A stretch of DNA of 32,577 nt from an uncultured bacterium (GTDB lineage: Bacteria; Verrucomicrobiota; Kiritimatiellia; RFP12; UBA1067). Below the pieces are notes generated by a model. It ran no database searches and was not told the origin of the DNA. It worked only from the letters and a program-made list of their open reading frames with translations. A program made the position numbers and the translations under genes. Location: contig CADCGZ010000027.1 of NCBI GenBank assembly GCA_902801025.1, positions 1-32,577 of the forward strand, read 5' to 3'. Each line of letters begins with the position of its first letter. The stretch's first letter is position 1. Positions 7,984 to 32,025 of the stretch are shown here, one piece after another.

Positions 7984-9213
7984 ATGCTGACAGCTTGTAT
8001 CTTCGCGGCAATTCTCGCCTCGCCTGGAGAGGTCGAGCTTGCCGAAAAGCTTCCCGCCATCTTCGAGAAAAGCGCCGCGCACTACCGCGCGATTGACGCC
8101 GCAGCGACGCCGCTGATGAATTCTGGCGACGCCGCCAAAGAGAAGAAGCCGTTCGGCGAGCGCCGTGTCCCTCACGGTTGGGATGCGAAGAACGGCAAGC
8201 CCGACATGCGCTCCATCTACTGGTGGACCTCCGGCCACTTCCCCGGATCTCTCTGGTATCTCTACCAGGCGACGGGCGACGAGTTCTTCAAAGAGAGGGC
8301 AATCGTCTGGACTGAGTCCATCGCGCCGAACTCGAAGGTTTCCGACAACCACGATGTCGGCTTTATCATGTACTGCTCGTTCGGCAACGCCCGTCGTCTT
8401 CTCAGGACTGACAAGTACGATGCGTTGCTTCTCGAGACGGCATCGTCGCTCTCGAAACGCTTCAACCCCGACCTTGGACTCATCAGGAGCTGGGGCGACG
8501 TCGCCGAGAAGAAAGACTTCCTCGTCATTCCCGACAACATGATGAACCTCGAGCTTCTCGAGTGGGCGGCGAAGAACGGCGGCGACAAGCGGTTTGACGA
8601 AATCGCGCGTTCGCACGCTACTAAGACGATGGCGCACCATTTCCGCGCGGACGGCGGCACCTACCATGTCCTTAACTATGACCAGCGTCCTGGCTTTCAT
8701 AGCGCGGTGCAGGAAATCCGCCGCGGGCAGGGGCTATCGTGCGAGACGGCGTGGAGCCGCGGGCAGTCGTGGGCGATCTATGGCTACACGATGATGTACC
8801 GCGAGACGAAGGATCCCGCCTATCTCGCCTTTGCCCAGAAGGTCTCTGACTTTGCGATCAACCATCCGAACATGCCTGAAGACGGCGTTCCCTACTGGGA
8901 CTTCGGCGCGCCCGGCGAGGAGCGCGACTCCTCCGCCGCGTCGGTAATGGCGTCGGGACTTCTCGAGCTTTCGACTTTTGTCGGCGGCGAGAAGGGCGCG
9001 AAGTACCGCGCGTTCGCGGTGAAGCAGCTCCTTTCGCTTTGCTCCGAAGCCTATTTCGCAAAGCCCGGCGAGAACGGAGACTGGCTTCTCAAGCACGGTG
9101 TCGGCCACAAGCCAGCCGGTGGCGAGATTGACGTCCCCCTCGACTACGGCGACTACTACTTCCTCGAGGCGCTTCTGCGCTTCCGCCGCCTCGCCGGCGG
9201 CTTCGCCCTCTAA
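7984..9213 (+). CDS. GH88-family unsaturated glucuronyl hydrolase
   Basis: 409 aa with the (alpha/alpha)6-barrel sequence of GH88. These enzymes remove the unsaturated uronic acid left at the non-reducing end of oligosaccharides after polysaccharide lyase action. Supporting motifs: YWWTSGHFPGSLWYLYQATG, SDNHDVGFIMYCSFGNA (first catalytic Asp), VIPDNMMNLELLEWAA (second Asp region), ETAWSRGQSWAIYGY and DYGDYYFLEALLR near the C-terminus. The N-terminus MLTACIFAAILAS is short and hydrophobic, so export is possible but uncertain. Start ATG 7984 has the SD GGAAGGA. It is followed 13 nt later by pfp. It suggests use of glycosaminoglycan, ulvan, pectin or another uronate-rich glycan. Confidence 0.92.
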   Translation: MLTACIFAAILASPGEVELAEKLPAIFEKSAAHYRAIDAAATPLMNSGDAAKEKKPFGERRVPHGWDAKNGKPDMRSIYWWTSGHFPGSLWYLYQATGDEFFKERAIVWTESIAPNSKVSDNHDVGFIMYCSFGNARRLLRTDKYDALLLETASSLSKRFNPDLGLIRSWGDVAEKKDFLVIPDNMMNLELLEWAAKNGGDKRFDEIARSHATKTMAHHFRADGGTYHVLNYDQRPGFHSAVQEIRRGQGLSCETAWSRGQSWAIYGYTMMYRETKDPAYLAFAQKVSDFAINHPNMPEDGVPYWDFGAPGEERDSSAASVMASGLLELSTFVGGEKGAKYRAFAVKQLLSLCSEAYFAKPGENGDWLLKHGVGHKPAGGEIDVPLDYGDYYFLEALLRFRRLAGGFAL

Positions 9214-9226
9214 TGATTTCTACGCT

Positions 9227-10414
9227 ATGAAAAAAAAGATGAACATGGTCATCGCCCAGTCGGGCGGCCCCTCGATGGTAATCAACCAGTCGCTCGTAGG
9301 CGCGGTGCTCGAAGCCCGCAAGTCGGCGAAAATAGGCAAGATCCTCGGTGCAAGGCACGGCATCCTCGGCATCCTCGGAAGCGACTACATCGACTTAAGG
9401 AAACCTTCCGCGAAGAAGCTCGAAGCGATTGCGGAGACGCCTTCTTCCGCGCTCGGCAGCTGCCGCAAGAAACCGGATGCCGCCGACTGCCGCGCTATTT
9501 TCGAGGCGTTTAGGAAGCTGAACGTCGGATACTTCTTCTACATCGGCGGCAACGATTCCGCAGACGCCGCGCGCATCGTCGCCGAGGAGGCCGAGAAGGA
9601 GGGCTATCCGCTTGTCGTCTACCACATCCCGAAGACGATCGACAACGACCTGCGCTCTTGCGACCACACTCCCGGCTTCGGCTCTGCGGCTCGGTTCGTC
9701 GCGAGCGCGATTCGCGGCGACGACCTCGACAACAGGGCTCTTGGCGGCGTCAAGATCGACATCATAATGGGCCGCGACGCCGGCTTTCTTACCGCGGCGT
9801 CTGCGCTTGCCCGCGTCCGTCCCGACGACGGCCCGCACCTCATCTATCTCCCCGAGGTCCCGTTTAGCGAGGCGAAGTTCATAAAGGACGTCAAAGCGGC
9901 GCTCAAGAAGTTCGGCCGCTGCGTCTGCGCCGTATCCGAGGGAATCCGCGGCAAGGACGGCATTCCGATTGGCGCAAAGCTTGGCTCCGGCGAGAAGGAC
10001 AGCCATGGAAATGTGCAGATGTCGGGAACTGGCGCGCTTGGCGATGCGCTTGCTCGCGTCCTCAAGGAGAAGGCGAAGGTGAAGCGCGTCCGCGCCGACA
10101 CATTTGGCTATCTCCAGCGCTCCTTCCCTGGGATTGCCTCGAAGGTCGACCAGGCCGAGGGCCGCGCAGCAGGCGCGGCGGCGGTAAAGGCGGCGCTTAA
10201 GGGCGTGCTCTCGAAGGGCACGATTGCGATTGTCCGCGAAGAGTCGAAGAAGTACCGCGTGGCGTTTGCGCCGGTGCCGATTCAGAACGCGGCGAAGTAC
10301 ACGCGTTCGGTGCCGAAGGAGTACATAGCGAAGAACGGCCACGACGTGACTGAGGCGTTCCTCGCGTACGCCCGCCCGATCGTCGGCGACCTTCCGCCTT
10401 GCGAGATATTCTAA
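9227..10414 (+). CDS. pfp: Diphosphate-dependent (PPi) 6-phosphofructokinase
   Basis: 395 aa, PFK family of the PPi-using long type. It interconverts fructose 6-phosphate and fructose 1,6-bisphosphate with PPi as phosphoryl donor in the cytosol. Motifs: AQSGGPSMVINQSLVGAV at the N-terminus, FFYIGGNDSADAARIV (GGND where ATP-dependent enzymes have GGDG), catalytic PKTIDNDL, GFGSAARFVASAIRGD, MGRDAGFLTAASALAR, and AVSEGIRGKDG. The ATG at 9227 is chosen because the family N-terminus MNMVIAQSGG follows; earlier in-frame starts would overlap the GH88 gene. A five-codon ORF (MISTL) links the GH88 stop to this start through TAATG and ATGA overlaps, suggesting coupling. Confidence 0.93.
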   Translation: MKKKMNMVIAQSGGPSMVINQSLVGAVLEARKSAKIGKILGARHGILGILGSDYIDLRKPSAKKLEAIAETPSSALGSCRKKPDAADCRAIFEAFRKLNVGYFFYIGGNDSADAARIVAEEAEKEGYPLVVYHIPKTIDNDLRSCDHTPGFGSAARFVASAIRGDDLDNRALGGVKIDIIMGRDAGFLTAASALARVRPDDGPHLIYLPEVPFSEAKFIKDVKAALKKFGRCVCAVSEGIRGKDGIPIGAKLGSGEKDSHGNVQMSGTGALGDALARVLKEKAKVKRVRADTFGYLQRSFPGIASKVDQAEGRAAGAAAVKAALKGVLSKGTIAIVREESKKYRVAFAPVPIQNAAKYTRSVPKEYIAKNGHDVTEAFLAYARPIVGDLPPCEIF

Positions 10415-19673: not shown

Positions 19674-22427
19674 ATGAAAGAACTTTCGCTTGCATTATTC
19701 ATTGCATGCGCGTCCGGCCTGTGCTGGGCAATCACCGCAGACCTTGCCGTTTCGAATGGCGGCGGGTTTTCCTTTTCGCCCAATTCCGGAAGCCATTTTG
19801 AACCCGCGTTGTTCGACGCTGGCTGGGGGCGCTGTCGCGCCTTCGGCGGATGGAGCGACGAAAATGGCGACGCGGACGGACCTTGGACACGTGCTTTTGA
19901 GATCGTCGGCAAAGACGCGGCGCCGGTTGTGCGGGGGAAGGTGACGTATGTCCTTCGCCGCGATGCCTCGGCCGGCGAACCCGTGGCGCACTTCACTTGG
20001 GAGTTTTCCGCTGCCAAGGACTTTGAGGGGAAGGAATTCTGCCTCGCATGGACGCTTCCTTGCGAACAGTATGCCGCCAACGCCTCGGCGGGAAAGGTCG
20101 TCTTCGGTGACAAGACAGTGGAGCTGCCGCAAAAATATGGCGTTACGCACTTGGGCAACGCAACTTGCGACACGCTGGAGATCGCCGCTCCGGCTGGTGT
20201 GCCCCTTCGCATAAAGCTCGACAGGCCGACATGGTGCATGGTGCAGGACGACCGCCAGTGGAATACCCCGTGTTTCTCGCTGCGGATGGTAATCGGCGCC
20301 GGCAAGCTCAAGGCCGGCGAAAGGCGGACTTTTTCGATGACAATGCGCGGCGTCTCGTCCTTTGTCCGCGACGGCAAATACACCGTGCGGGCAAGCGACG
20401 ACTGGGTGCCTGTCAATGACACGACGGCCGTCAAGGCCGGCTCCGCGCTCGACTTTTCCGCCGCAGGGTGGATCGACGCGCCCGCCGGGAAGCACGGACG
20501 CGTCGTTCGCAAGGGCGATCATTTCGAGTTCGCCGGGATGCCCGGCGTAAAGCAGCGCTTCTACGGCGTCAACCTCTGCTTCTCCGCGAACTACATGAGC
20601 GCGGCCGACGCCGAAGAGCTTGCGACGCGTCTTTCGCGCCTCGGCTACAACGCGCTGCGCATACACCACTACGAGCGCGAACTATGCGACCGGAAGGACG
20701 GCACGACGATCCGCCCCGAGAAGATGGCCGAGCTCGACAACCTCCTGAACGCCTGCATCCGCCACGGCATATACCTGACGACAGACCTCTTCGTCTCGCG
20801 GAACGTCCCCTGGCGTTCCTGCGGCATTGACCGCGACGGCGTAGTTCAGATGAAGGAATACAAGGAGCTTGTGCTCTTCCACGATGGCGCCTTCAGGAAC
20901 TATCTCGACTTTTCGCGCCAGCTTCTCAACCATGTCAACCCCGAGACCGGTCGCCGTTGGGCCGACGAGCCGGCCTTCGCGTTCCTCGCGCTCGTAAACG
21001 AAGGGAATCCCGGCAACTACGGCTATGGCTTCATGAAGAACTTGCCAGAGGCGAAGACGGCATGGGAGAAGTGGCTTGCCGCGCACAAGGCGAAAGAGTC
21101 CAAGACGTATGCCAATATCACGGACAAGGTGCCGGACAACTGCTGGGAGAACTCGCCGCAGAATTGCGTGTACGCGCTCTTCCTTACCGATATAGAAATC
21201 GACTTTGCCAAGCGAATGACGGCTTTCATCCGCGAGGAGATCAAGTCGCAGGTGCTCCTCACCGACCTTTCCTGCTGGAAGAACGCGATTGAGTACCAGC
21301 TCGTCCGCACGCACTACGACTATGTAGACGACCATTTCTACGTGGATCACCCCAAGTTTCTCGAGAAGGACTGGCAGCTGCCGAGCAGCTGTCCGAACTC
21401 AAATCCCGTCCGCGGGGAGAACGCCGGCTTCGAGGCGGTCGCCAAGCATCGACTCCTCGACCGTCCGTTCACGCTCACCGAATTCAACTACTCGGGCCCC
21501 GGCCAGTTCCGCGGCGTCGGCGGCATGATGCTCGGCGCGCAGGCCGCGCTTCAGGAATACGACGGCATCTGGCGCTTCGCCTGGAGCCATAACGCCGAGG
21601 GCCTTCTCAAGCCGCAGTCGATCCACTACTTCGACGTAGCAAAGGATCCGCTTCAGCGTGCGACCGAGCGCGCCGTAACGATGCTATACTTGCGAGGCGA
21701 CATGAAGCCGCTTAAGCGCATGCACGCGGTCGTCTTCCCCGAGAAGGCGCTCCGCAGCGACTTCAGCTGCGGCCCCCAGGCGGACATCAAGGACATGTGG
21801 TTCGGGTGGCACGCCCGCTTCGGCACACTCATCGCCGACGCGCTCCCGGCGGGAGCGACTTCGGGCGGGCTCTTCCCGGATATTTATTCGCGCACGTCTG
21901 ACGACTATCGACGCTGGGCCGAAGGATCGCGTCCCGGCGACGGGCAGGTGATCATCGACCGCGAGGAGGGGTTCTTTGGCGTCGATACGCCGCGGACCAC
22001 CGGTTTCTTCGCTGAGGCGGGCGAGCGCACTGTCGGGCCTCTTACTGCGAAGTTCGACGGGAAAGCGCCGGCCGCAGTCTGGGTGAGCGCACTGGACGAT
22101 GCGCCGATCGCCTCGTCAAAGCGGCTTCTGCTTACGCATGTCGCGGACGTTCAGGACGAGGGAACGGTCTATGCTGACGGCACGAAGAAGGTGCTTCTCA
22201 AGTGGGGCCGTCTCCCGCACCTCATGCGCCGGAGCGCGGCGGAGGTGACGATTGTGTTTGAGGACGCGAAGACCTGCACCGTCTACGCGCTTTCGTCGGA
22301 CGGCTCGCGCCGCGGCGAAGTGCCGGTCATCCAGAAGGGCGGGAAGGTCTCCTTCGTTGCGAACACAGCCCGCGATCCCGCCGAAGCGACCTGCTACTAC
22401 GAAATCATAAGGATTTGGTACAATTAA
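19674..22427 (+). CDS. Secreted GH5-like (clan A) glycoside hydrolase
   Basis: 917 aa with signal peptide MKELSLALFIACASGLCWA. An N-terminal beta-rich domain (about 20-285) precedes a TIM barrel (about 300-690): FYGVNLCFSANYMSAADAEE, RLSRLGYNALRIHHYERELC, LNACIRHGIYLTTDLFVSR. Candidate acid/base Glu443 lies in LALVNEGNPGNYG and candidate nucleophile Glu603 in FTLTEFNYSGPG, about 160 residues apart as expected for clan A retaining enzymes. A beta-sandwich follows at the C-terminus (VWVSALDDAPIASSKRLLLT). The ATG at 19674 follows an AAAGAGAGAG purine run. It is placed between the remnant gene and the regulator and shares their operon. Substrate unknown. Confidence 0.83.
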   Translation: MKELSLALFIACASGLCWAITADLAVSNGGGFSFSPNSGSHFEPALFDAGWGRCRAFGGWSDENGDADGPWTRAFEIVGKDAAPVVRGKVTYVLRRDASAGEPVAHFTWEFSAAKDFEGKEFCLAWTLPCEQYAANASAGKVVFGDKTVELPQKYGVTHLGNATCDTLEIAAPAGVPLRIKLDRPTWCMVQDDRQWNTPCFSLRMVIGAGKLKAGERRTFSMTMRGVSSFVRDGKYTVRASDDWVPVNDTTAVKAGSALDFSAAGWIDAPAGKHGRVVRKGDHFEFAGMPGVKQRFYGVNLCFSANYMSAADAEELATRLSRLGYNALRIHHYERELCDRKDGTTIRPEKMAELDNLLNACIRHGIYLTTDLFVSRNVPWRSCGIDRDGVVQMKEYKELVLFHDGAFRNYLDFSRQLLNHVNPETGRRWADEPAFAFLALVNEGNPGNYGYGFMKNLPEAKTAWEKWLAAHKAKESKTYANITDKVPDNCWENSPQNCVYALFLTDIEIDFAKRMTAFIREEIKSQVLLTDLSCWKNAIEYQLVRTHYDYVDDHFYVDHPKFLEKDWQLPSSCPNSNPVRGENAGFEAVAKHRLLDRPFTLTEFNYSGPGQFRGVGGMMLGAQAALQEYDGIWRFAWSHNAEGLLKPQSIHYFDVAKDPLQRATERAVTMLYLRGDMKPLKRMHAVVFPEKALRSDFSCGPQADIKDMWFGWHARFGTLIADALPAGATSGGLFPDIYSRTSDDYRRWAEGSRPGDGQVIIDREEGFFGVDTPRTTGFFAEAGERTVGPLTAKFDGKAPAAVWVSALDDAPIASSKRLLLTHVADVQDEGTVYADGTKKVLLKWGRLPHLMRRSAAEVTIVFEDAKTCTVYALSSDGSRRGEVPVIQKGGKVSFVANTARDPAEATCYYEIIRIWYN

Positions 22428-22444: not shown

Positions 22445-23077
22445 ATGAAGAAGATCAAGGTACTTCTTGTCGATGATCATGCGGTAGTGCGAATGGGCCT
22501 CAAGTATGCGCTTTCGCTCTTCAAGGACATTGAACTCGCCGGCGAGCTGTCGGATGGGGAACGCGCGGCGGAACTCATGAAAAGCTCGGGCGCGGATGTC
22601 GCCCTGCTTGACATCAGGATGCCGGGCAAGGACGGCCTAGCCGCCCTCGGCGAGATGCTTGCGGCAGATCCTTCCGCAAAGGTTGTAATGCTCACTACGA
22701 GCTCAATGGAGGAAGACGTATATGCCGCGCTGAACGCCGGTGCGAAGGGATACGTCCTAAAGGACCGCAATCCGGAGAACATCGTCAAGGCAGTGCGTAC
22801 CGTCGCGGAGGGCGGAACCTTTATCCCCGACGACATCAAGGCGATCTACAAGGCGAGGAGCGAGGAGCCGGAGCTTACGCCCACGGAGCGCGAGGCAGTT
22901 GGACTGCTCGTCCAGGGGCTCAGCAACAAGGCCATAGCCGAAAAGGTCGGGATATCCGAAGACGGCGTGAAGGTACGCCTCAAGCATGCCTACGAGAAGC
23001 TCGGCGTAAATGACCGCGCTGGCGCGATATCCGTCGCCATCAGGCGCGGCATAGCCCGTCCCGCCGGTGTGGTGTAG
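22445..23077 (+). CDS. NarL/LuxR-family response regulator
   Basis: 210 aa. The receiver domain has the acidic pocket VLLVDDHAVVRMGL, phospho-acceptor Asp56 in LLDIRMPGKDG, the conserved Thr/Ser in LTTSS and the Lys in GYVLKD. The C-terminal LuxR-type helix-turn-helix is LTPTEREAVGLLVQGLSNKA followed by IAEKVGISEDGVKVRLKHAYEKLGV (given in two parts). ATG 22445 is chosen: it follows GGGGACGAAGG and gives the usual MKKIKVLLVDD start; an in-frame TTG at 22415 overlaps the GH5-like gene. The sensor kinase follows after 21 nt. It is the most likely regulator of the surface genes on either side. Confidence 0.95.
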   Translation: MKKIKVLLVDDHAVVRMGLKYALSLFKDIELAGELSDGERAAELMKSSGADVALLDIRMPGKDGLAALGEMLAADPSAKVVMLTTSSMEEDVYAALNAGAKGYVLKDRNPENIVKAVRTVAEGGTFIPDDIKAIYKARSEEPELTPTEREAVGLLVQGLSNKAIAEKVGISEDGVKVRLKHAYEKLGVNDRAGAISVAIRRGIARPAGVV

Positions 23078-23098: not shown

Positions 23099-25180
23099 AT
23101 GAAATGCGGTCTGTCAGTCCTGTGCGCGGCGCTTGCCGCTTCGGCCTTCGCGCTTCCGCGCGTGAAGATCTCGGATGTCCTCGCCATGGACGCAGACGAG
23201 ATCGCCGCATGCGGGAAGTGCGAGCTTGAAGTGCAGGTGACGTTCAACATACCCTGGGTGGAGAATGCGTTTGTGGCCACCGATGTTGGCGATGTCGACG
23301 GGCATGCGCTCTATTTCGCGACGTTCACGGAACCTCAGCCCGGCAAGTTCGACATGGTCGAGCCCGGCGACATAGTGAGGGTCGTCGGCGCTCCGGATCC
23401 GATGCTGCTTGAGCCCGGAATAGACGTGGAGAGCGTGAAGTTCGTTTCGCACGCCGACCTCCCCCCGCCGCGTCCCCGGTCTGTTCTTGGAATAAAGGCG
23501 GGGCACTTCAACAACTGCCGTGTGCATGTGCGCGGCGTCGGCATGTCGGCGGCATACGGCACCGCGGTCGGGAAACCGGCGTTTCTCCTGTGGCTTTCGA
23601 CTTCGGACGGAGAGGTCCGTGTGCGCGTTCGCGCAGACGACCTGTCGCCTGCGGCGTTCCGCGACGCGGATGTCGAGGTGGACGGCGTGGTCGTCCCGGT
23701 GTTCAATCCGCGCCACGAGTTCATAGGCGCGGAGATAGAGGCGCTCGACGCGAAGTCCATCTCTGTGGTGAAGTCGCCGCCGGAGGACCCGTTCTCCGTG
23801 CCCGAGTGCGACACATGGTCGCTGCTCGCATGGAGCCCGCGCGGACGCAGGCTGCACGCCTGCCGCGTCATGGGCGAGGTCACGTGCATCTACACGGAAG
23901 ACGGTGCGTTTTCCGTCCAGCGCGGAAAGGCGTCCGCGAGGGTGTTCGCGGACGGCGAGCCTCCGGCGGTGGGCGACATTGTGGAGGCTGTCGGCTTCCC
24001 GGCGATACGGGACGAGTGCGGCGCGCTCGTGGGTGCGCTTTGGCGGCGCACGGATGCGGAAGTCGAGCCGGCGGAAGTGCACCGCCTCTCGCTCGCGCCG
24101 GGGTCGCTGTTCGACCTCGGCGGGTTCATGGCCGACAACGACCTGCAGTTCCGCCTCGTCGAGCTCGTGGGACGCGTCGAAGACGTGCGCCTGGAGCATG
24201 GCCCGGGCGGGCGTCTCATCATTGACGTCGACGGGCAGAACGTGGACGTGATGCTCCCGCCGTCCGTAGCGGCCGAGCTTCCCTGGGGGATTGAGGACCG
24301 TCCGATCGTGCGTGTCCGCGGCGTTCTTGACGCGCGTGTCTCGCAGGGGGACGCATTGAACAGGCTGTTCAGCTTCGAGGGGTTCCACCTCCGCACCAGG
24401 TGCGCTGACGACATCGAGCTCGTCCCCGACTGGCAGTGGGGCGCGAGGAGGGCGCTCGGCTTCGCGTGGGCCGCGCTCCTCACGGTGCTCGCCGCGTTCG
24501 GCGCTTTCGCGGCAGTCGTCGCCTTCCGCCGTCACCGTGCGCACGTCGGCGCCGAGGCGATAGCGGCCGACAGGCGGCGCATCGCCGCGGAGCTGCACGA
24601 CACGATATCCCAGCACATATCCGGCGCGAAGCTGTGGGTGTACTCCGCGAAGATGGCCGCGGGCGACACGCTTGCGCCTGGCGCGGCAGATGCGCTCGTG
24701 ATGGCGGAGAACGTCCTTGAGGCGACGCGGCGCGAGATACGCGATGCAATCATGGACCTCCAGAGCGACGAGTTCGTATCTCAGTCGCCGGAGTCGCTTC
24801 TGCGGCGCATCTGCCGCGACGCGTCGGTTCCGGGTAAGACGCGGGTTCGCAGCTTTCTGCGCGGTCTCCCGGTGGACCTCCCGATCCGCGTGAAGCGCGA
24901 CCTCCTTGCCATCGCGTCCGAGGCGATCGGAAACGCCGTGCGGCACGGCGGGGCGGCGAACGTCATCGTCGTGAGCGAAGGCGACGGCGCGGGCGCGTTT
25001 ACGCTGGATGTCCTCAACGACGGCGCGCCGTTCTCGGCGGACGCCGCGCCGGGTCCGGAGAAGGGGCACTTCGGAATCTCCAACATGCGCGAGCGCGCGG
25101 CGCGCTCCGGCATGACGCTGACGTTCGGCGAAAAGCGCGGCTACGTCGCGGTCACGCTCGAGCGCCGGGCCGGGTCCTGA
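23099..25180 (+). CDS. Membrane sensor histidine kinase (HisKA_3) with large exported beta-domain sensor
   Basis: 693 aa. The signal peptide MKCGLSVLCAALAASAFA sends about 430 residues to the periplasm. They contain repeated OB-fold-like units, each with a pattern of short strands and a turn such as PAVGDIVEAVGFPA or VEPGDIVRVVGAP. One membrane helix (about 449-474, FAWAALLTVLAAFGAFAAVV) leads to a NarX/DesK-type kinase: H-box RRRIAAELHDTISQHISG (His500), N-box SEAIGNAVRHGG, and G-box GHFGISNMRERAARSGM. It is the cognate partner of the NarL-type regulator just upstream. The sensor domain probably binds an extracellular ligand, perhaps a glycan fragment given the neighbours (inference). Confidence 0.92.
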   Translation: MKCGLSVLCAALAASAFALPRVKISDVLAMDADEIAACGKCELEVQVTFNIPWVENAFVATDVGDVDGHALYFATFTEPQPGKFDMVEPGDIVRVVGAPDPMLLEPGIDVESVKFVSHADLPPPRPRSVLGIKAGHFNNCRVHVRGVGMSAAYGTAVGKPAFLLWLSTSDGEVRVRVRADDLSPAAFRDADVEVDGVVVPVFNPRHEFIGAEIEALDAKSISVVKSPPEDPFSVPECDTWSLLAWSPRGRRLHACRVMGEVTCIYTEDGAFSVQRGKASARVFADGEPPAVGDIVEAVGFPAIRDECGALVGALWRRTDAEVEPAEVHRLSLAPGSLFDLGGFMADNDLQFRLVELVGRVEDVRLEHGPGGRLIIDVDGQNVDVMLPPSVAAELPWGIEDRPIVRVRGVLDARVSQGDALNRLFSFEGFHLRTRCADDIELVPDWQWGARRALGFAWAALLTVLAAFGAFAAVVAFRRHRAHVGAEAIAADRRRIAAELHDTISQHISGAKLWVYSAKMAAGDTLAPGAADALVMAENVLEATRREIRDAIMDLQSDEFVSQSPESLLRRICRDASVPGKTRVRSFLRGLPVDLPIRVKRDLLAIASEAIGNAVRHGGAANVIVVSEGDGAGAFTLDVLNDGAPFSADAAPGPEKGHFGISNMRERAARSGMTLTFGEKRGYVAVTLERRAGS

Positions 25181-25343
25181 TCCGTCGTGCTCGTCTGCCG
25201 CAAGGCGCTCGCGCGTCGTCCCTCCCCGGCTGAGCTGCCCCTGATGAGGATTCAAGGCGGCACTACACTTTCGTGTATTGTCCCGTTGTGGGCGGTTTGG
25301 TAGAATTGCGACATAAAAGAAAATTGCAAAGGAGCCGAAAGCA
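25181..25343 (+). promoter_or_regulatory. Intergenic control region of the 897-aa secreted protein: operator candidate and promoter
   Basis: TACAC-TTTC-GTGTA (25264-25277) is a palindrome directly abutting -35 TTGTCC (25278-25283). A 17-bp spacer and -10 TAGAAT (25301-25306) follow. A strong Shine-Dalgarno (AAAGGAG) precedes the ATG at 25344. The same arrangement stands before the 1262-aa enzyme. No gene or terminator is seen in 25181-25260. Confidence 0.65.
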
Positions 25344-28037
25344 ATGAAAAAGCCGCAGATTGAATGTCTCGAATCGCCTTCCACGCCGCTATCTTCGCAC
25401 AATCGCAGCGGTGCGATTCTTGCAGCTTTTCTCGCCGCGCTGTCCGCGCTGAACTGCAGCATGGCCCGCGCGGAGGTTTTGGTCTACCAAGGATTTCACC
25501 AGGGCGACTGGCCAGGCATAACTGACACGGCAAGTCAGCAGATTAACCACAGCAGCGCCAAAACGTCCGGCGATTACTCGACCGGTTTCGACAAAAACTC
25601 TTCCTGGCAGGTGTCTGACAATACGACGCAGATTTCCGTCAGTGGGACCAATTACGGGCTTTCGCTGCCTGACATTATGACGCAGAAGGGTTTCACGACG
25701 TGCGGCGGCGCCGCCCAGTTCAATCTGGGCATGAACAGCAGCGAACAGCGAGGGGGGTATCATGCGTTCACTGCCGACACACTCAAGGTTTCGTCTGGGA
25801 CGCTCTATGTCCGCGCTCTTTTGCGTCTGACGGAGCCTGCGGCAGCGAAACTGATTTCCGTAGAAACGCCGGCCGGTAATGTCAACGGGTCGTATTTCGG
25901 TTTCGGACTTCTCGGTAAGACGTCGGCCAATCGTTATGCCCCGACGCAGACTTCCAACACGTCCTCCTGCACATTCCTGATGTGGAAGAACAAGGCCGGG
26001 GATTATATCCTCTCGCTCTGCCTCATCGATGCATCTGGCGTTCTGACGCACTATCCGCTTGTCACGGGTTTCACGATGGGCGAGACATATCTCTGCTATG
26101 CGGAAATAAGCGTTGGAGCCGGAGCGGACGGACAGGAGCGTGTCCGGGGCGGCGCGGTAGCGTCGACCGACTTCGCGGGCGCCGCTGCTTGGGCAGCGCT
26201 GGGCGGATCGTCTGACGCGGTAGAAGTTCAGCTTATCACGGATTCGTCCTATCCGAAGGCAATGGCAATCGCGGGTCCCTACGGAACGCACAATGGCGTG
26301 TTTCGCGCGGACGAGTTCGTCGTCGGCACTTCTTTGTCCGACATTCTGCCCGTCGGAGGCGTCTTCTCCGTCGCGGCAAGCGGCGTTCAGACGGTCGGGA
26401 CGGATTCCTTCGAGACGGAATGGATTCTCGTTGCGGACGAAGGCGTAACGGCGGATGCCGGTCTCGTCTGGAGTACGGACGAAACGTTCGCGACCGCGAC
26501 GACGAATTCGCTCGGCACGGGACTTTCTGCAGATACCCGCACGGCGACGCTCTCGGGCCTCGAACCCGACACGACGTATTGGTGGAAGATCGTTGCCGAA
26601 GGAAACGGCGCCGAAGAGGCGGAATCGGCTGTCGCTTCCTTCACGACGAAGGGCGCGCCGGTTCTGGGCACGGCAACGGCCACGGCGGACGGCGAGACGG
26701 CATCTTTCTCGGTCGCGCTCGCGACGGCCGCGATGGAAAACACGCTCGCGACATCCGTATCGGTTTTCTACGGCACGGACGGCGAAACATGGACGGAACT
26801 TCCGCTCGGGTCGGCTTCCGAAGCGCAGACCTTCTCCGGTACGGTGCAAAGCCTCGGCTATGGTGTGACCTGCCAGTGGTATGCCCAGGCAACGGCGACC
26901 TTGGCGGGCGGGCGCGTCCTTTCCGCGCAGACGGATGTCGCGTCGTTCACGACGCTCTACAACGGCGATATGTATGTCGACGCTGCGGCGCAGAGCGCGA
27001 CGGCGCCATATTCGACGCCAGCGACCGCCACGCCGAGCATAGCCACGGCGCTCGCCCTCGCGACGGACGGTGCGACGATTCACGTCGCGCCGGGGCTGTA
27101 CAAGATTTCAACTCCGCTGAACGTGACATCTGCCGTGCGGATTCTCGGCGACGATATGGCACCTTCGCGTGTCGTCGTGTCGAACACGGCGGGCGTGGCG
27201 TGGGGGAACACAAATCACCGATGCGTCACGCTCAACCATCAGGATGCCGTCGTGTCGGGCATCACGTTCGAGAACGGCAAGGATTACGGCGACGGCGGAA
27301 ACGTGCGCATCGACGCGAACGGCGGAATGGTGACGAACTGCGTCATCCGCAACGGCTTCACGCGCGAAGACAATACCTCGGCTGGCGCGAACGTCGCGAT
27401 TGTCGGACCCGGCAAGGTGACGCACTGCAAGATCTTCGGCGGCTGGGAGAACAACTGCAACGGATGCACAAAGACGTCATCCGTATACCTGGACGCCTCC
27501 GACGCGCGCATCGAGAACTGCCTGATTGATGGGTTCCTTGGATCCGATGTCCCATCCCAGCCCACCAAGAACTCCTGCGGAATCTACATCGCGAACGGCG
27601 TCGCCGCAAACTGCACGGTTATGAACTGCACGTCGCCTTACACCGAGGCAGCCGGCGTCGCGGGCATCCTGATTTCGTCCGACAGCGGCCGGGCCGTCAA
27701 CTGCGTTTCGGTCGCGAACGTGGACAGCAACGGAACCGTGCGCGCGTTCCTGGCGTCGCAAGTTTCGCGTGCGGTGAACTGCGCGTTCGACGCGATCGAA
27801 GGAGAAGCGGCCATACCCGACGGCATGGTGAACCCCGTCGTCGGAACGGCGGCGTCGTTCTTCAAGGACTACGCGAACGGCGACTACACGCCGGCCGGGC
27901 CGCTTGTGAACAAGGGCGCGAACTACGAAGGCATGGCGTCCGTCGACCTTGCGGGCAACCCGCGCAAAATCGGCAGCAAGATCGACATCGGCTGTTACGA
28001 GGCGAGCTCTTCCGCACTCATGATAGTCGTGCGCTGA
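25344..28037 (+). CDS. Secreted FnIII/beta-helix protein with choice-of-anchor-Q end
   Basis: 897 aa. The N-terminal signal is long, with its hydrophobic core at about 23-40 (AILAAFLAALSALNCS) and likely cleavage after ARA. Residues of about 44-330 are a LamG-like beta region (VLVYQGFHQGDW; FTADTLKVSSGTLYVRALLR). Two FnIII-like domains follow, about 338-436 (LSGLEPDTTYWWKIVAEG) and 437-540. A right-handed beta-helix covers about 541-845 (TIHVAPGLYKISTPLNVTSA, then repeated NCV(I/M) turns). The C-terminus has the anchor-Q motif DLAGNPRKIGSKIDIGCYE and an 11-residue tail ASSSALMIVVR. Same architecture style and ending as the giant protein. Likely surface-exposed; role in adhesion or glycan binding is inferred. 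Confidence 0.85.
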   Translation: MKKPQIECLESPSTPLSSHNRSGAILAAFLAALSALNCSMARAEVLVYQGFHQGDWPGITDTASQQINHSSAKTSGDYSTGFDKNSSWQVSDNTTQISVSGTNYGLSLPDIMTQKGFTTCGGAAQFNLGMNSSEQRGGYHAFTADTLKVSSGTLYVRALLRLTEPAAAKLISVETPAGNVNGSYFGFGLLGKTSANRYAPTQTSNTSSCTFLMWKNKAGDYILSLCLIDASGVLTHYPLVTGFTMGETYLCYAEISVGAGADGQERVRGGAVASTDFAGAAAWAALGGSSDAVEVQLITDSSYPKAMAIAGPYGTHNGVFRADEFVVGTSLSDILPVGGVFSVAASGVQTVGTDSFETEWILVADEGVTADAGLVWSTDETFATATTNSLGTGLSADTRTATLSGLEPDTTYWWKIVAEGNGAEEAESAVASFTTKGAPVLGTATATADGETASFSVALATAAMENTLATSVSVFYGTDGETWTELPLGSASEAQTFSGTVQSLGYGVTCQWYAQATATLAGGRVLSAQTDVASFTTLYNGDMYVDAAAQSATAPYSTPATATPSIATALALATDGATIHVAPGLYKISTPLNVTSAVRILGDDMAPSRVVVSNTAGVAWGNTNHRCVTLNHQDAVVSGITFENGKDYGDGGNVRIDANGGMVTNCVIRNGFTREDNTSAGANVAIVGPGKVTHCKIFGGWENNCNGCTKTSSVYLDASDARIENCLIDGFLGSDVPSQPTKNSCGIYIANGVAANCTVMNCTSPYTEAAGVAGILISSDSGRAVNCVSVANVDSNGTVRAFLASQVSRAVNCAFDAIEGEAAIPDGMVNPVVGTAASFFKDYANGDYTPAGPLVNKGANYEGMASVDLAGNPRKIGSKIDIGCYEASSSALMIVVR

Positions 28038-28054
28038 TGCCCCTGGAGCGGCGC

Positions 28055-28097
28055 TACACTTCTGTGTATTGTTGCTTCGCTGCGCTTTTGGTAAAAT
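28055..28097 (+). promoter_or_regulatory. Operator candidate and promoter of the 1262-aa glycosidase
   Basis: TACAC-TTCT-GTGTA (28055-28068) directly abuts -35 TTGTTG (28069-28074); a 17-bp spacer and -10 TAAAAT (28092-28097) follow. Palindrome, spacing and order match those at 25264-25306. The stretch GGTAAAATCGCGCCTGT also resembles the tRNA-Met promoter near 32064. Confidence 0.65.
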
Positions 28098-28126: not shown

Positions 28127-28209
28127 ATAACTCTCTGCGAACTCTGCGTCTCTGCGCCTCTGCGTTGAAAAAAGAATTAAACAATCTACACGATCTACAT
28201 GTTCTACAC
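28127..28209 (+). repeat. Degenerate tandem-repeat leader in the 5' UTR
   Basis: Four CTCTGCG units at 8-9-nt spacing (within about 28131-28165) and three TCTACA units at 9-nt spacing (about 28183-28208), in a transcript leader of about 130 nt. Sequence of this kind recurs as spacer repeats in several bacterial groups. The in-frame translation of this stretch is not expected to be used. Confidence 0.5.
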
Positions 28210-28236
28210 GGCTTAAAACAAACAAAGGAAAAAGCA

Positions 28237-31200
28237 ATGAAGAAACTGGTTTCCGCATTGATTGTCGCAGGCACGGCGCTTGCACTTCATGCTGCAGTTC
28301 ACGAAGACGACTGGCTCAAGGTCGAGACGCCGGACAAGGTTGTTCCCGATTCCGGCTTTCAGGTGAAGGTCACGCTCAAGAAGGACCTCGGACCCAGCGA
28401 GAACGTGACCGTCGCGATGCACACGTTCAAGACCGACGGCGGCTGGATGGGCACCGGCGAGTGGCGTCCGCCGCAGACGATGAAGAAGGGCGAGACGAAG
28501 GTGTTCTCCTTCACCGCGAAGGGGAGCGACAAGGTCGGACACTTCGGCCCGCTCGCGTTCATCGCCCCCAACGGCGACTGGGGCAAGGCGACGCACAAGA
28601 TCTTCTGCGGCAAGATAACCTGGGCGATGTCCGGCGCGGAGGCCGCGAAGCGGAAGGCTGAGGCGGAGGCGAAGGCCGCGCGCGCGAAACCGCCCGCCGG
28701 AATCACCTACAAGAAGAGCTGGATCGTCCCGCGCGGATGCTTCAAGCCCGGCACCGACGAGCCGGTGAAGGAGATCCGCGAGGGCGAGCCGTTCGATGTC
28801 GTGGCCGACTACTACCTCGACCCTTCCGAATACTGGAACAACAAATGCCACGTCGTCGTCTTCGGTTGCGGCCCGTGGATCGACAACCCCGACGGCGTCC
28901 ATGAAAAGAGCAGCCACCATGTCAACTATCCGGGGGCGGGCTGGGGTTTCCGCGAGGTGAAGCCCGGCAAGGGCACGGTCCGCGTCACGCAGAAGATCAA
29001 GAAGTTCTTCCGCTACAACTCGCTCTTCTTCCACGTCCGCTTCCGCGGCGGCGACGACAAGGACTTCCCGTGGACGAAGACGTGCGGGGCTCCGAAGATG
29101 GTCCGCCCGATCAACGGGCTCGACATCGTCGCGCCTACGGCCGGCGGCCTTTTCGTCGCAGGCCGCGAGAAGCCTGTCGTCGACCTCATCGCCGGCTCGG
29201 ACGCGAAGGCCGGCTCTCCCGTCACCATCAAGATCCTCGCCCTCGACGCTGTCGGCAAGCTCGAGGAAGTCGGCTCTGTCTCGGCTACGATGCCTGATCC
29301 CGGCAAGACGGCCAAGGTCGATCTCTCGAGCGCCATCGGCAAGCGGCTCGGCTGCTTCCTCGCGGAAGGGCGCTCGGGCGACAAGTCGGTCGACGCGTTC
29401 TTCGGCGTCATTCCCGATGTCGACAAGGCGCTTGGCGGAAGGCGCGCGCCCTTCGGCGCGACGGACCTCCATACCGACCTCGAATGCGAGACGGCCGCGA
29501 AGCTCGGCTTCTCCGTGAACCGCATGTTCATCGGCTGGGGCTCGCTCGTCCCGAGGCGTGGCGAATACAGGTTCGACGGACTCTCCGCGCAGATGGACCG
29601 TCAGGAGAAGCACGGCATCAAGCCGTGGCTTATGCTCATCGGCGCACCCGAGTGGGTGCTCCCGCCGAACGTCCACTCGCCCGGCTTCGAGCCGTATCCG
29701 TTCGACGAGGCCGGCTGGCGCGAGTCTATCCGCGCGATCTCTCAGCGGTTCGGAAAGCGCGTCTTCGGCATCGAATGGCTCAACGAGATCACCCCCGGAA
29801 ACAAGAGCTCGAACCCTGCCGCCGACTACAGCCGCTTCTGCGAGATCGGCACAGAGGAGCTCAGGAAGGTGAACCCGAAGGCGCACTCGATGCTTGCGGG
29901 CGGACTCTGGCCGCGCAACTTCCGTCTCGATGTCCTCGGCGCGGGAATCGGCAAGCACGTCGACATCCTCCCGATTCACTACGGCGAGTACGAAAGCGCC
30001 GCGGAGGCGATTGCCGACGCCGCTGCAGGCGGCATCAAGACCGTCTGGAACGACGAGTCCGCCGCGGGCATGTCGGTGTGGGGAATGGACGGGCGCGAGG
30101 CGCTCGAGAGAAGCGTCCTCCAGTCGCGCAACGTGCTGCGCGTATGGCCGGCGCAGCTCGTCGCCGGCGTGAAGGGCATAATCTACTTCGGCGGCGAGGC
30201 GAACCCCGCCGGAAACTGGAAGTACCTCCTCGACGACTATACGCCGCGCCCAGTAGCCGCCACGCTCGCCGTCATGTCCGCGAAGCTCGGCAACGCCCGC
30301 CCAGTCGGCGCCTACTATGCCGAACCAGGCGCGCGCGTCATCGTGTTCGAGCGGAAGGACGGCACGGCGCTTGCCGTAGTCGGCTCCGCGAACGGCGACG
30401 AGAAGTCCGCGCCTGTCGAGGTGAATATCCCCGCGACTCCCGGCTCCACCATCGTCAGTACCGACCACCAGGGCAACGAGAGAACCATCGCCGCCAAGGG
30501 CGACACTATTTCCATAAAGGCCGGCGCGATGCCGTTGATCTACGAGGGGCTGCCGCTTACGCCTCTCGCCGTCCGCTGCACGCTCACGCTCGAGGGGCAG
30601 GGCCCGCTCACGCCGAAGCCCTCAGTGAGCTTCGTGAAAGGCGCCGCGCCACAGGTGCGCGTCTCGGTGCGCAATCCGCTGCGCACGCCCGTCGAGGGAG
30701 TAGTTGGTGTCGCGGTCGTTCCCGGCGGGAAGTCGGGCAAGGCGTTCAGCCTTGCGCCCGGCGAGAGCGCACACTTCATCCTCGACCTTCCGTCCGAGAC
30801 GTTCCCCTCCGGCTCCGCGAAAGGCGTGGCGCGCGTCGCCTGGAAGCTCGGAGGCGGCAAGGAGAACGTCATGGCGCAGACCGACTTCGCTGTTGATGTC
30901 ATCGATCCCGCGACGCTTGGCAACCTCCTCTTGAACGGCGGATTCGAGGCGAAAGGCGGGTCGAAGGAGTCGTGGAACGGCGGCGGCAGGATCGTGAAGC
31001 TGGACGGCTCCCGTCCGGGCGAGGACGGAAACGCTCTTTCGCTTGACCACGGCAAGGGCTGGATTCAGCTATTCCAGCGCGCCGACAATCCGTCGCCGGG
31101 CCGCAAGCTCCTCTATACCGCGTGGATGCGCACGGACAACATGAACGCGGGCTCGAACGCGTCGCTCGTCAACAGCAACGGCTCCTCGCGCAACCTCTAC

Positions 31201-32025
31201 ATGCCGGACGTCTTCACCGCGCCGAAGGATACGCACGGTGCGTGGCAGTTCATGGTCAAGGTGCTCAACTCGAAGCCGGACGACGTCAAGGTGCAGGTGC
31301 AACCCGTCGCGAGCGGCGAAAATGGCGGTGCGCTCTACGACAACATCCGCCTCACGCTTCACGACGGCACCGACTGGGCGACGGAGGCGCATCGCGCCGC
31401 GAAGGCGCGGAAGATCGACGGCGACCTCTCCGACTGGGATTTCGTCGATCCGATTCCGCTTCTCTGTGCGAACCAGATCGCGTCCGAAGGCGGCTACAAG
31501 TGGACGCCCAACAACCTCTCCGGCATCGCGCAGCTCGCGTGGGACGATGAAGCGCTCTACATGGCGGTGCGCGTGCGCGACGACGTCCACAGTGCGCAGA
31601 CGGGGGAGAACACGCTTAGGGGCGACGCACTGCAGATAGGGCTACATCCCGCAAACCGCCTCGCCGGAACGGACAGCGCCGCGATCGAGTGGTGGGTCTC
31701 CGCGGCGAATCCGGGCAGCGGCTCGGGGAAGCACACGGTCTACCGCCCCGCCGCGCATGCCGCGGGCCTCGCGAGCGGACAGCTCGCGAAGGACTCGTCC
31801 GTATACGAGATTGCCGTCGTGCGCAAGGGCAACGACACCTGCTACGAGTTCCGCATCCCGTGGCGCGACGCGGGCGGAATCCGTCCGCAGCCCGGTACGC
31901 GTCTCGGGCTTTCGCTCAGGCTTACCGACACCGATTCCGGCGCGGCGCGCGGCGCGGCGGCATGGGGCCGCGGCCTTGAATCGTGGACGCCTTCCGCGTT
32001 TGGCTCGCTCGTCCTTCTGCCGTAA
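28237..32025 (+). CDS. Secreted multidomain TIM-barrel glycoside hydrolase with CBM-like C-terminus
   Basis: 1262 aa from ATG 28237 (preceded by AAAGGAAAAAG; signal peptide MKKLVSALIVAGTALALHAA). Three beta-sandwich domains (about 22-400) precede a clan-A-like TIM barrel, about 400-720: GFSVNRMFIGWGSLVPRRGE, KPWLMLIGAPEWVLPP. Acid/base candidate Glu517 lies in GIEWLNEITPGN and nucleophile candidate Glu607 in TVWNDESAAG. Next come beta domains, a CBM4/9-like domain starting LLLNGGFEAKGG, and a CBM9-like domain (KIDGDLSDWDF; LAWDDEALYMAVRVRDD; YEFRIPWRDAGG). Frame stays open upstream into the 5' UTR, but signal peptide and SD decide the start. GH39/GH42-like families are possible; substrate unknown. 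Confidence 0.86.
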   Translation: MKKLVSALIVAGTALALHAAVHEDDWLKVETPDKVVPDSGFQVKVTLKKDLGPSENVTVAMHTFKTDGGWMGTGEWRPPQTMKKGETKVFSFTAKGSDKVGHFGPLAFIAPNGDWGKATHKIFCGKITWAMSGAEAAKRKAEAEAKAARAKPPAGITYKKSWIVPRGCFKPGTDEPVKEIREGEPFDVVADYYLDPSEYWNNKCHVVVFGCGPWIDNPDGVHEKSSHHVNYPGAGWGFREVKPGKGTVRVTQKIKKFFRYNSLFFHVRFRGGDDKDFPWTKTCGAPKMVRPINGLDIVAPTAGGLFVAGREKPVVDLIAGSDAKAGSPVTIKILALDAVGKLEEVGSVSATMPDPGKTAKVDLSSAIGKRLGCFLAEGRSGDKSVDAFFGVIPDVDKALGGRRAPFGATDLHTDLECETAAKLGFSVNRMFIGWGSLVPRRGEYRFDGLSAQMDRQEKHGIKPWLMLIGAPEWVLPPNVHSPGFEPYPFDEAGWRESIRAISQRFGKRVFGIEWLNEITPGNKSSNPAADYSRFCEIGTEELRKVNPKAHSMLAGGLWPRNFRLDVLGAGIGKHVDILPIHYGEYESAAEAIADAAAGGIKTVWNDESAAGMSVWGMDGREALERSVLQSRNVLRVWPAQLVAGVKGIIYFGGEANPAGNWKYLLDDYTPRPVAATLAVMSAKLGNARPVGAYYAEPGARVIVFERKDGTALAVVGSANGDEKSAPVEVNIPATPGSTIVSTDHQGNERTIAAKGDTISIKAGAMPLIYEGLPLTPLAVRCTLTLEGQGPLTPKPSVSFVKGAAPQVRVSVRNPLRTPVEGVVGVAVVPGGKSGKAFSLAPGESAHFILDLPSETFPSGSAKGVARVAWKLGGGKENVMAQTDFAVDVIDPATLGNLLLNGGFEAKGGSKESWNGGGRIVKLDGSRPGEDGNALSLDHGKGWIQLFQRADNPSPGRKLLYTAWMRTDNMNAGSNASLVNSNGSSRNLYMPDVFTAPKDTHGAWQFMVKVLNSKPDDVKVQVQPVASGENGGALYDNIRLTLHDGTDWATEAHRAAKARKIDGDLSDWDFVDPIPLLCANQIASEGGYKWTPNNLSGIAQLAWDDEALYMAVRVRDDVHSAQTGENTLRGDALQIGLHPANRLAGTDSAAIEWWVSAANPGSGSGKHTVYRPAAHAAGLASGQLAKDSSVYEIAVVRKGNDTCYEFRIPWRDAGGIRPQPGTRLGLSLRLTDTDSGAARGAAAWGRGLESWTPSAFGSLVLLP

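Follow-up and report, generated by a model that had tools for sequence, protein, structure and literature searches.

The locus and its two promoters

On the forward strand of the window (here, the whole stretch of DNA that was analysed, 32,577 nucleotides), a gene for a secreted protein with a weak GH5 match below the cut-off (19674..22427) overlaps the open reading frame of a NarL/FixJ-type response regulator (22445..23077) and probably forms one operon with it; a sensor histidine kinase (23099..25180) follows, and then come two genes for secreted proteins, target gene 1 (25344..28037) and target gene 2 (28237..32025). The regulator and the sensor lie where a first-pass annotation of this DNA had placed them.

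The regulator consists of a receiver (Pfam Response_reg, 86 bits) and a GerE helix-turn-helix domain (49.6 bits) with the recognition helix ISEDGVKVRLKHAYEKL. Its best solved relative is NarL (1a04); in the alignment with NarL the phospho-acceptor aspartate is present (ALLDIRMPG) and conserved in the aligned relatives, and the recognition helix retains NarL's VKV..K pattern. With the NCBIfam NarL model the protein scores 151 bits, below the equivalog cut-off of 250. The sensor kinase has an N-terminal signal, beta-barrel (OB-like) sensor domains, one transmembrane segment and a HisKA_3 kinase part (38.3 bits; cut-off 24), in which the phospho-acceptor histidine, H500, is invariant in 23 relatives. 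In an AlphaFold model built from 23 relatives (mean pLDDT 81), the all-beta N-terminal half forms successive barrels, one long helix crosses the membrane, and the kinase part matches VraS and DesK; structure comparison of this model matches the beta part to OB-fold proteins, HIN domains and RPA among them, and OB-like is the best description of the sensor part, with uncertain domain boundaries.

Target gene 1 encodes a secreted FnIII-like/right-handed beta-helix protein with a choice-of-anchor Q-like C-terminus and a ...LMIVVR tail at the stop; the FnIII and beta-helix matches are weak, and the anchor Q match, at 23.9 bits, is just below the cut-off of 25. Compared with its counterparts in related species (L028, L032, L033), the promoter, the N-terminus (MKKPQIECL...) and the C-terminal anchor are kept, while what follows the signal peptide is different, which looks like an exchange of the middle part. 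Target gene 2 encodes a 1262-aa secreted glycosidase-like protein with a C-terminal CBM9-like domain (Pfam, 37.7 bits) and a putative TIM-barrel part, proposed from the NE and E motifs of the translation. Its start is the ATG at 28237; the TTG picked by the ORF caller lies inside the promoter and is wrong. The leader of gene 2 holds heptamer-like repeats (ctctgcgtctctgcgcctctgcg and tctacacgatctacatgttctacacgg, 28130-28215), and the leader of gene 1 is short and unlike it.

Each target gene is preceded by an inverted repeat of the form 5-4-5. Operator 1 (25264..25277, TACACTTTCGTGTA) reads TACAC-TTTC-GTGTA and abuts the -35 element TTGTCC (25278..25283), from which the -10 element TAGAAT (25301..25306), with an extended -10 TGG in front, is separated by 17 bp. 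Similarly, operator 2 (28055..28068, TACACTTCTGTGTA) reads TACAC-TTCT-GTGTA and abuts the -35 element TTGTTG (28069..28074), followed after 17 bp by the -10 element TAAAAT (28092..28097), also with TGG in front. Read directly from the sequence, both copies of the palindrome, TTGNNN, 17 bp and TANAAT stand at the positions first claimed for them. Both -35 hexamers are poor. The palindrome-to--10 distance is 30.5 bp, which puts the palindrome centre at about -42.5 when the -10 is set at -12 to -7 (the transcription start being inferred). Only two exact palindromes occur within the window, and matches with one or two mismatches are at about chance level; a search of the window for an operator of the regulator's own operon found none. 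An RNA stem-loop reading of the repeat was dropped because the repeat sits upstream of the promoter.

Distribution of the operator in the genome and the genus

The assembly searched comprises 3.50 Mb in 195 contigs and is 82.6% complete. The exact TACACN4GTGTA occurs at two places in all 3.50 Mb, both in the window, and the longer form CTACACTTNNGTGTATTGT, with up to 3 mismatches, gives one further weak match. From base composition about 1.4 such sites would be expected, and reversing the pattern as a control likewise yields 2 places; the raw number of palindromes is thus no higher than chance and was dropped as evidence. The placement is a different matter. The pattern TTG-N17-TGGTANAAT occurs 25 times in the genome and TTG-N18-TGGTANAAT 39 times, while reversal gives 0 and 1 matches, respectively; these 64 matches against 1 mark it as an ordinary extended -10 promoter form in this genome, and its being so common helps promoter prediction in the lineage. 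Both window palindromes directly precede a TTG-N17-TGGTANAAT promoter. With 25 such promoters, about 1e-5 coincidences of palindrome and promoter are expected and two were found, so the placement is far beyond chance. Among 55 promoters fetched as loci, only the two in the window match the palindrome and the 53 others lack it; the window promoters agree with operator 1 at 14/14 and 12/14 letters, the other promoters at no more than 6/14 at that position. Random positions genome-wide, which the first-pass annotation had named as evidence against a regulon, are thus not what the motif scan shows.

Within the genus, TACACN4GTGTATTG has 18 copies in 8 of 61 genomes (reversed control, 1). Close orthologues of the kinase, with 78-99% identity, are present in exactly these 8 site-bearing genomes, the best match elsewhere being 45%. 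Such agreement between site and kinase would arise by chance with a probability of about 3e-10 if genomes were independent, a figure that is weakened by shared ancestry, of which the comparison over 61 genomes takes no account. The aligned sites read CTACACTTYCGTGTATTG, then TTTTGGTARAAT at a constant distance; conservation covers the arms, the -10 and the TTG, which all but a few orthologous sites keep, while the spacer and the flanks vary. The genes downstream of orthologous sites encode secreted LamG, beta-helix, CBM9 or other large proteins. One genome, G048, holds about 8 sites within 33 kb and a further one, C33, on a contig separate from the kinase. In G053 and G054, whose regulators are 69% identical to that of the window, no TACAC site was found on the short contigs concerned, and the G053 locus has no adjacent secreted gene either. 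A family-wide search gave 4 further matches to TACACCGGCGTGTATTG in other genera, all four with the same centre; these possibly lie in coding sequence and were set aside.

A wider family of paralogous pairs

The kinase search returned up to about 20 related matches per genus genome, not all of them full-length; many of the full-length copies adjoin a regulator and a large secreted protein. Outside the genus, the kinase family is present in 9 of 21 genomes sampled from other genera, and none of these has more than 6 matches. Read by inspection, the promoters of the neighbouring secreted proteins suggested other palindromes at the same place. At paralogous loci as a whole, 5-4-5 palindromes peak 31-32 bp before the -10; in the discovery set, an offset profile over de-duplicated promoters, the peak is at 31 bp (7 vs. 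0.94 background, P=5.6e-5). For a held-out set of 40 further loci, the test was fixed before their retrieval, and 20 palindromes were found at offsets 30-32 against 4.6 expected (P=8e-8); among 16 loci of the family's other genera there were 7 against 1.0 expected (P=8e-5), and control promoters from the window's own genome gave 1 against 0.7 expected, no excess. Examples of paralogous operators are TACCCAGGTGGGTA, TATCCTTTAGGATA, CCTACATTTGTAGG, CGCCCGAACGGGCG and TGCACCAAAGTGCA, with a half-site of roughly YRYMC. These operators were missed by strict scans for palindrome plus TTG and -10 because their -35 lies 1-2 bp further, and they were recovered by relaxed offset profiling. Many paralogous loci have no operator by the automated criterion, partly since contigs are short. 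A weight matrix of the window-type sites found no match in the paralogous loci, which indicates that the window-type sequence is specific to the window regulator. The undescribed regulon proposed in the first-pass annotation is well supported as far as the regulatory site is concerned; that the pair belongs to a large regulator-operator family was missed there.

The sequence of the palindrome tracks the recognition helix weakly. In Mantel tests of half-site distance against recognition-helix distance, r=0.31 for all 27 loci (P=2e-5), 0.21 for held-out loci (P=0.035) and 0.17 for helix identity below 70% (P=0.033), so that the association is weak once near-identical helices are removed; the discovery-set operators were partly picked by eye and the held-out ones by rule, and rows whose symmetry is doubtful, or which lie in the same promoter, were left as the rule produced them. 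L198 and L212 have near-identical helices (HVGRDCIKAHLK) and the same TACCC arms before different genes. The window and L229, in turn, have TACAC arms in common despite unrelated helices, and the helix-operator code is therefore not one-to-one; specificity may also come from the palindrome centre, from the 1-bp shift to the -35, or from insulation at the kinase. L229 (G012:C193:4000-19046) has four TACACN4GTGTA operators 30-32 bp before -10s and a different regulator with the helix NVSENTVRKATSTIFSKLGV; its genome also holds the window-type system, and cross-talk between the two is possible.

Other observations were made at these loci. In three loci of other genera (L256, L262, L266), TAGCCN4GGCTA or a close form stands 31-32 bp before the -10 of genes of 678-687 aa; these are kinase-sized putative sensor kinases, hinting at autoregulation there, unlike in the window. 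At L080 (G053:C28), a gene at 9024-9950, RhaT-like by eye and resembling rhamnose transporters, lies directly upstream of a 42% kinase relative. In addition, large secreted proteins end in a tail of the form G-[FL]-x-three hydrophobics-R/K/Q at the stop, e.g., GFVIVIR, GLMIIVR and ALMIVVR. It was found in the window (28020-28037), in L085 (11000-11030), in L088, L090, L091, L093-L096 and L098, and also in L184, L186, L187, L193, L199 and L200. In the paralogous loci it ends 16 of 272 complete genes, nearly all of them large and secreted-looking and many beside a kinase-regulator pair; for six tailed proteins scanned, NCBIfam names no such C-terminal signal.

Proposed mechanism and its meaning

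The reading that we favour, with a probability of about 0.7, is that the NarL-type regulator activates the neighbouring secreted-protein genes from a private operator. Through its extracytoplasmic stack of OB-like barrels, the sensor kinase (23099-25180) would detect a ligand outside the cell, for which a plant-glycan fragment is the likeliest candidate, and would phosphorylate the regulator (22445-23077), a dimer of which would bind TACAC-N4-GTGTA at about -42.5, against a poor -35 hexamer. Once bound, the regulator would activate RNA polymerase on what is in other respects an ordinary extended -10 promoter and so switch on the secreted beta-helix protein and the CBM9 glycosidase-like protein. 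The window pair would be one of the paralogous sensor-regulator pairs in a rumen/gut genus of Kiritimatiellae, many of them with a 5-4-5 palindrome of their own. Beside the established sites, geometry, conservation, phylogenetic co-occurrence, positional enrichment and weak operator-helix association, we infer direct binding, activation, control by phosphorylation and the ligand.

The first-pass annotation had left the palindrome as an activator or repressor site. That it is a regulatory site is well supported by placement, spacing, co-occurrence and the paralogous counterparts; the palindrome alone cannot separate the two roles, and it is the centre at -42.5 that favours an activator. Repression of both promoters by the neighbouring regulator, with RNA polymerase blocked at the -35, is unlikely: the palindrome does abut the -35 with zero gap, and E. 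coli NarL is known to repress from sites near the start (PMC4549865), but the centre at about -42.5, which leaves the -35 to -10 region clear, the poor -35 hexamers and the strictly kept -10 spacing are all typical of class II-type activation and not of blocking. In E. coli, the NarL sites from which napF and yeaR are activated have been reported at -40 to -49 and -38 to -47, respectively (PMC4549865), and a single NarL site lying 32 bp before the -10 has been reported to suffice for induction (PMC9314961). The E. coli system (napF, yeaR, ogt1052) resembles the window in its NarL-family regulator with receiver and GerE domains, its HisKA_3-type kinase, and an inverted repeat centred near -42 to -44 with outer TAC...GTA half-site bases. 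However, the E. coli sites are nitrate-responsive 7-2-7 repeats (TACYYMT, outer arms 6 bp apart), whereas those of the window are 5-4-5 with arms 2 bp closer and have only the outer TAC/GTA in common with the heptamers (PMC4549865).

Somewhat less probable still is recognition of the palindrome by another DNA-binding protein encoded elsewhere, with the two-component system a mere neighbour. A 5-4-5 palindrome would suit several repressor and activator families, and neighbours need not be regulators; nevertheless, across 61 genomes the site is present in all those with the close kinase orthologue and in no others, and the corresponding position in paralogous pairs is taken by different palindromes, which vary with the adjacent regulator. 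It is very improbable that the shared motif has no regulator of its own and is just a promoter segment that was copied, or a promoter element of general use: some G048 promoters have a spacer sequence in common, so that promoter duplication probably occurred there, and promoters of the extended -10 form are common in this genome, but in G010, G041 and G048 (C33) the same palindrome stands amid different flanks and spacers and before a different downstream gene, the 53 other promoters lack it, and unrelated palindromes occupy the same place in paralogous loci.

As for the signal, the coupling to glycan sensing in the earlier idea is plausible from the CBM9 and glycosidase-like targets and from one paralogous locus, the ligand and its binding being predictions. 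In that locus, L085, the palindrome CCCGTTCGGG stands before a tailed secreted protein and before a GH10-GH43 xylanase, which adjoins a GH115-esterase gene; this is a glucuronoxylan set by enzyme content, and it makes glycan control likely for the kinase-regulator family. As a class, a local two-component regulator of a glycan locus fits the gene neighbourhood and is the predicted role. The hybrid two-component systems (HTCS) of Bacteroides polysaccharide utilization loci are comparable, with many paralogous membrane sensors per genome, each adjoining its own glycan locus under predicted control and having regulator-specific DNA motifs (PMC3878776). In contrast to the present pairs, in which the kinase and the GerE-type regulator are encoded by two genes and the operators are short inverted repeats, an HTCS combines kinase and AraC-type regulator in one fused protein, and its operators are long direct repeats. 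In Pontiella agarivorans (Kiritimatiellota), from the same phylum, HisKA_3-type kinases stand beside glycan genes, and kinase and regulator genes lie near glycosidases and sulfatases, a report of neighbourhood alone, not of operators or regulons (PMC10880615).

Control of this kind is thus already known, both as NarL-type regulation and, from the Bacteroides HTCS (PMC3878776), as locus-private two-component systems; judged by the literature searched, the present variant is new. Our literature search found no paper on gene control in rumen Kiritimatiellae, uncultured bacteria in which it is essentially undescribed. We put at about even odds the broader proposal that one genus has up to about 20 paralogous systems per genome, each regulator co-diverged with its own fixed-position 5-4-5 operator, as largely orthogonal NarL-type pairs that are each private to local secreted glycan-active proteins. 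The fixed operator position makes regulons readable from sequence, tying a sensor to its target enzymes and thence to the likely glycan. The many paralogous pairs are a natural data set on how DNA specificity changes within one response-regulator family while cross-talk is limited, and the palindromes that related genomes have of their own suggest that individual sets of plant-fibre genes are each wired to a private switch.
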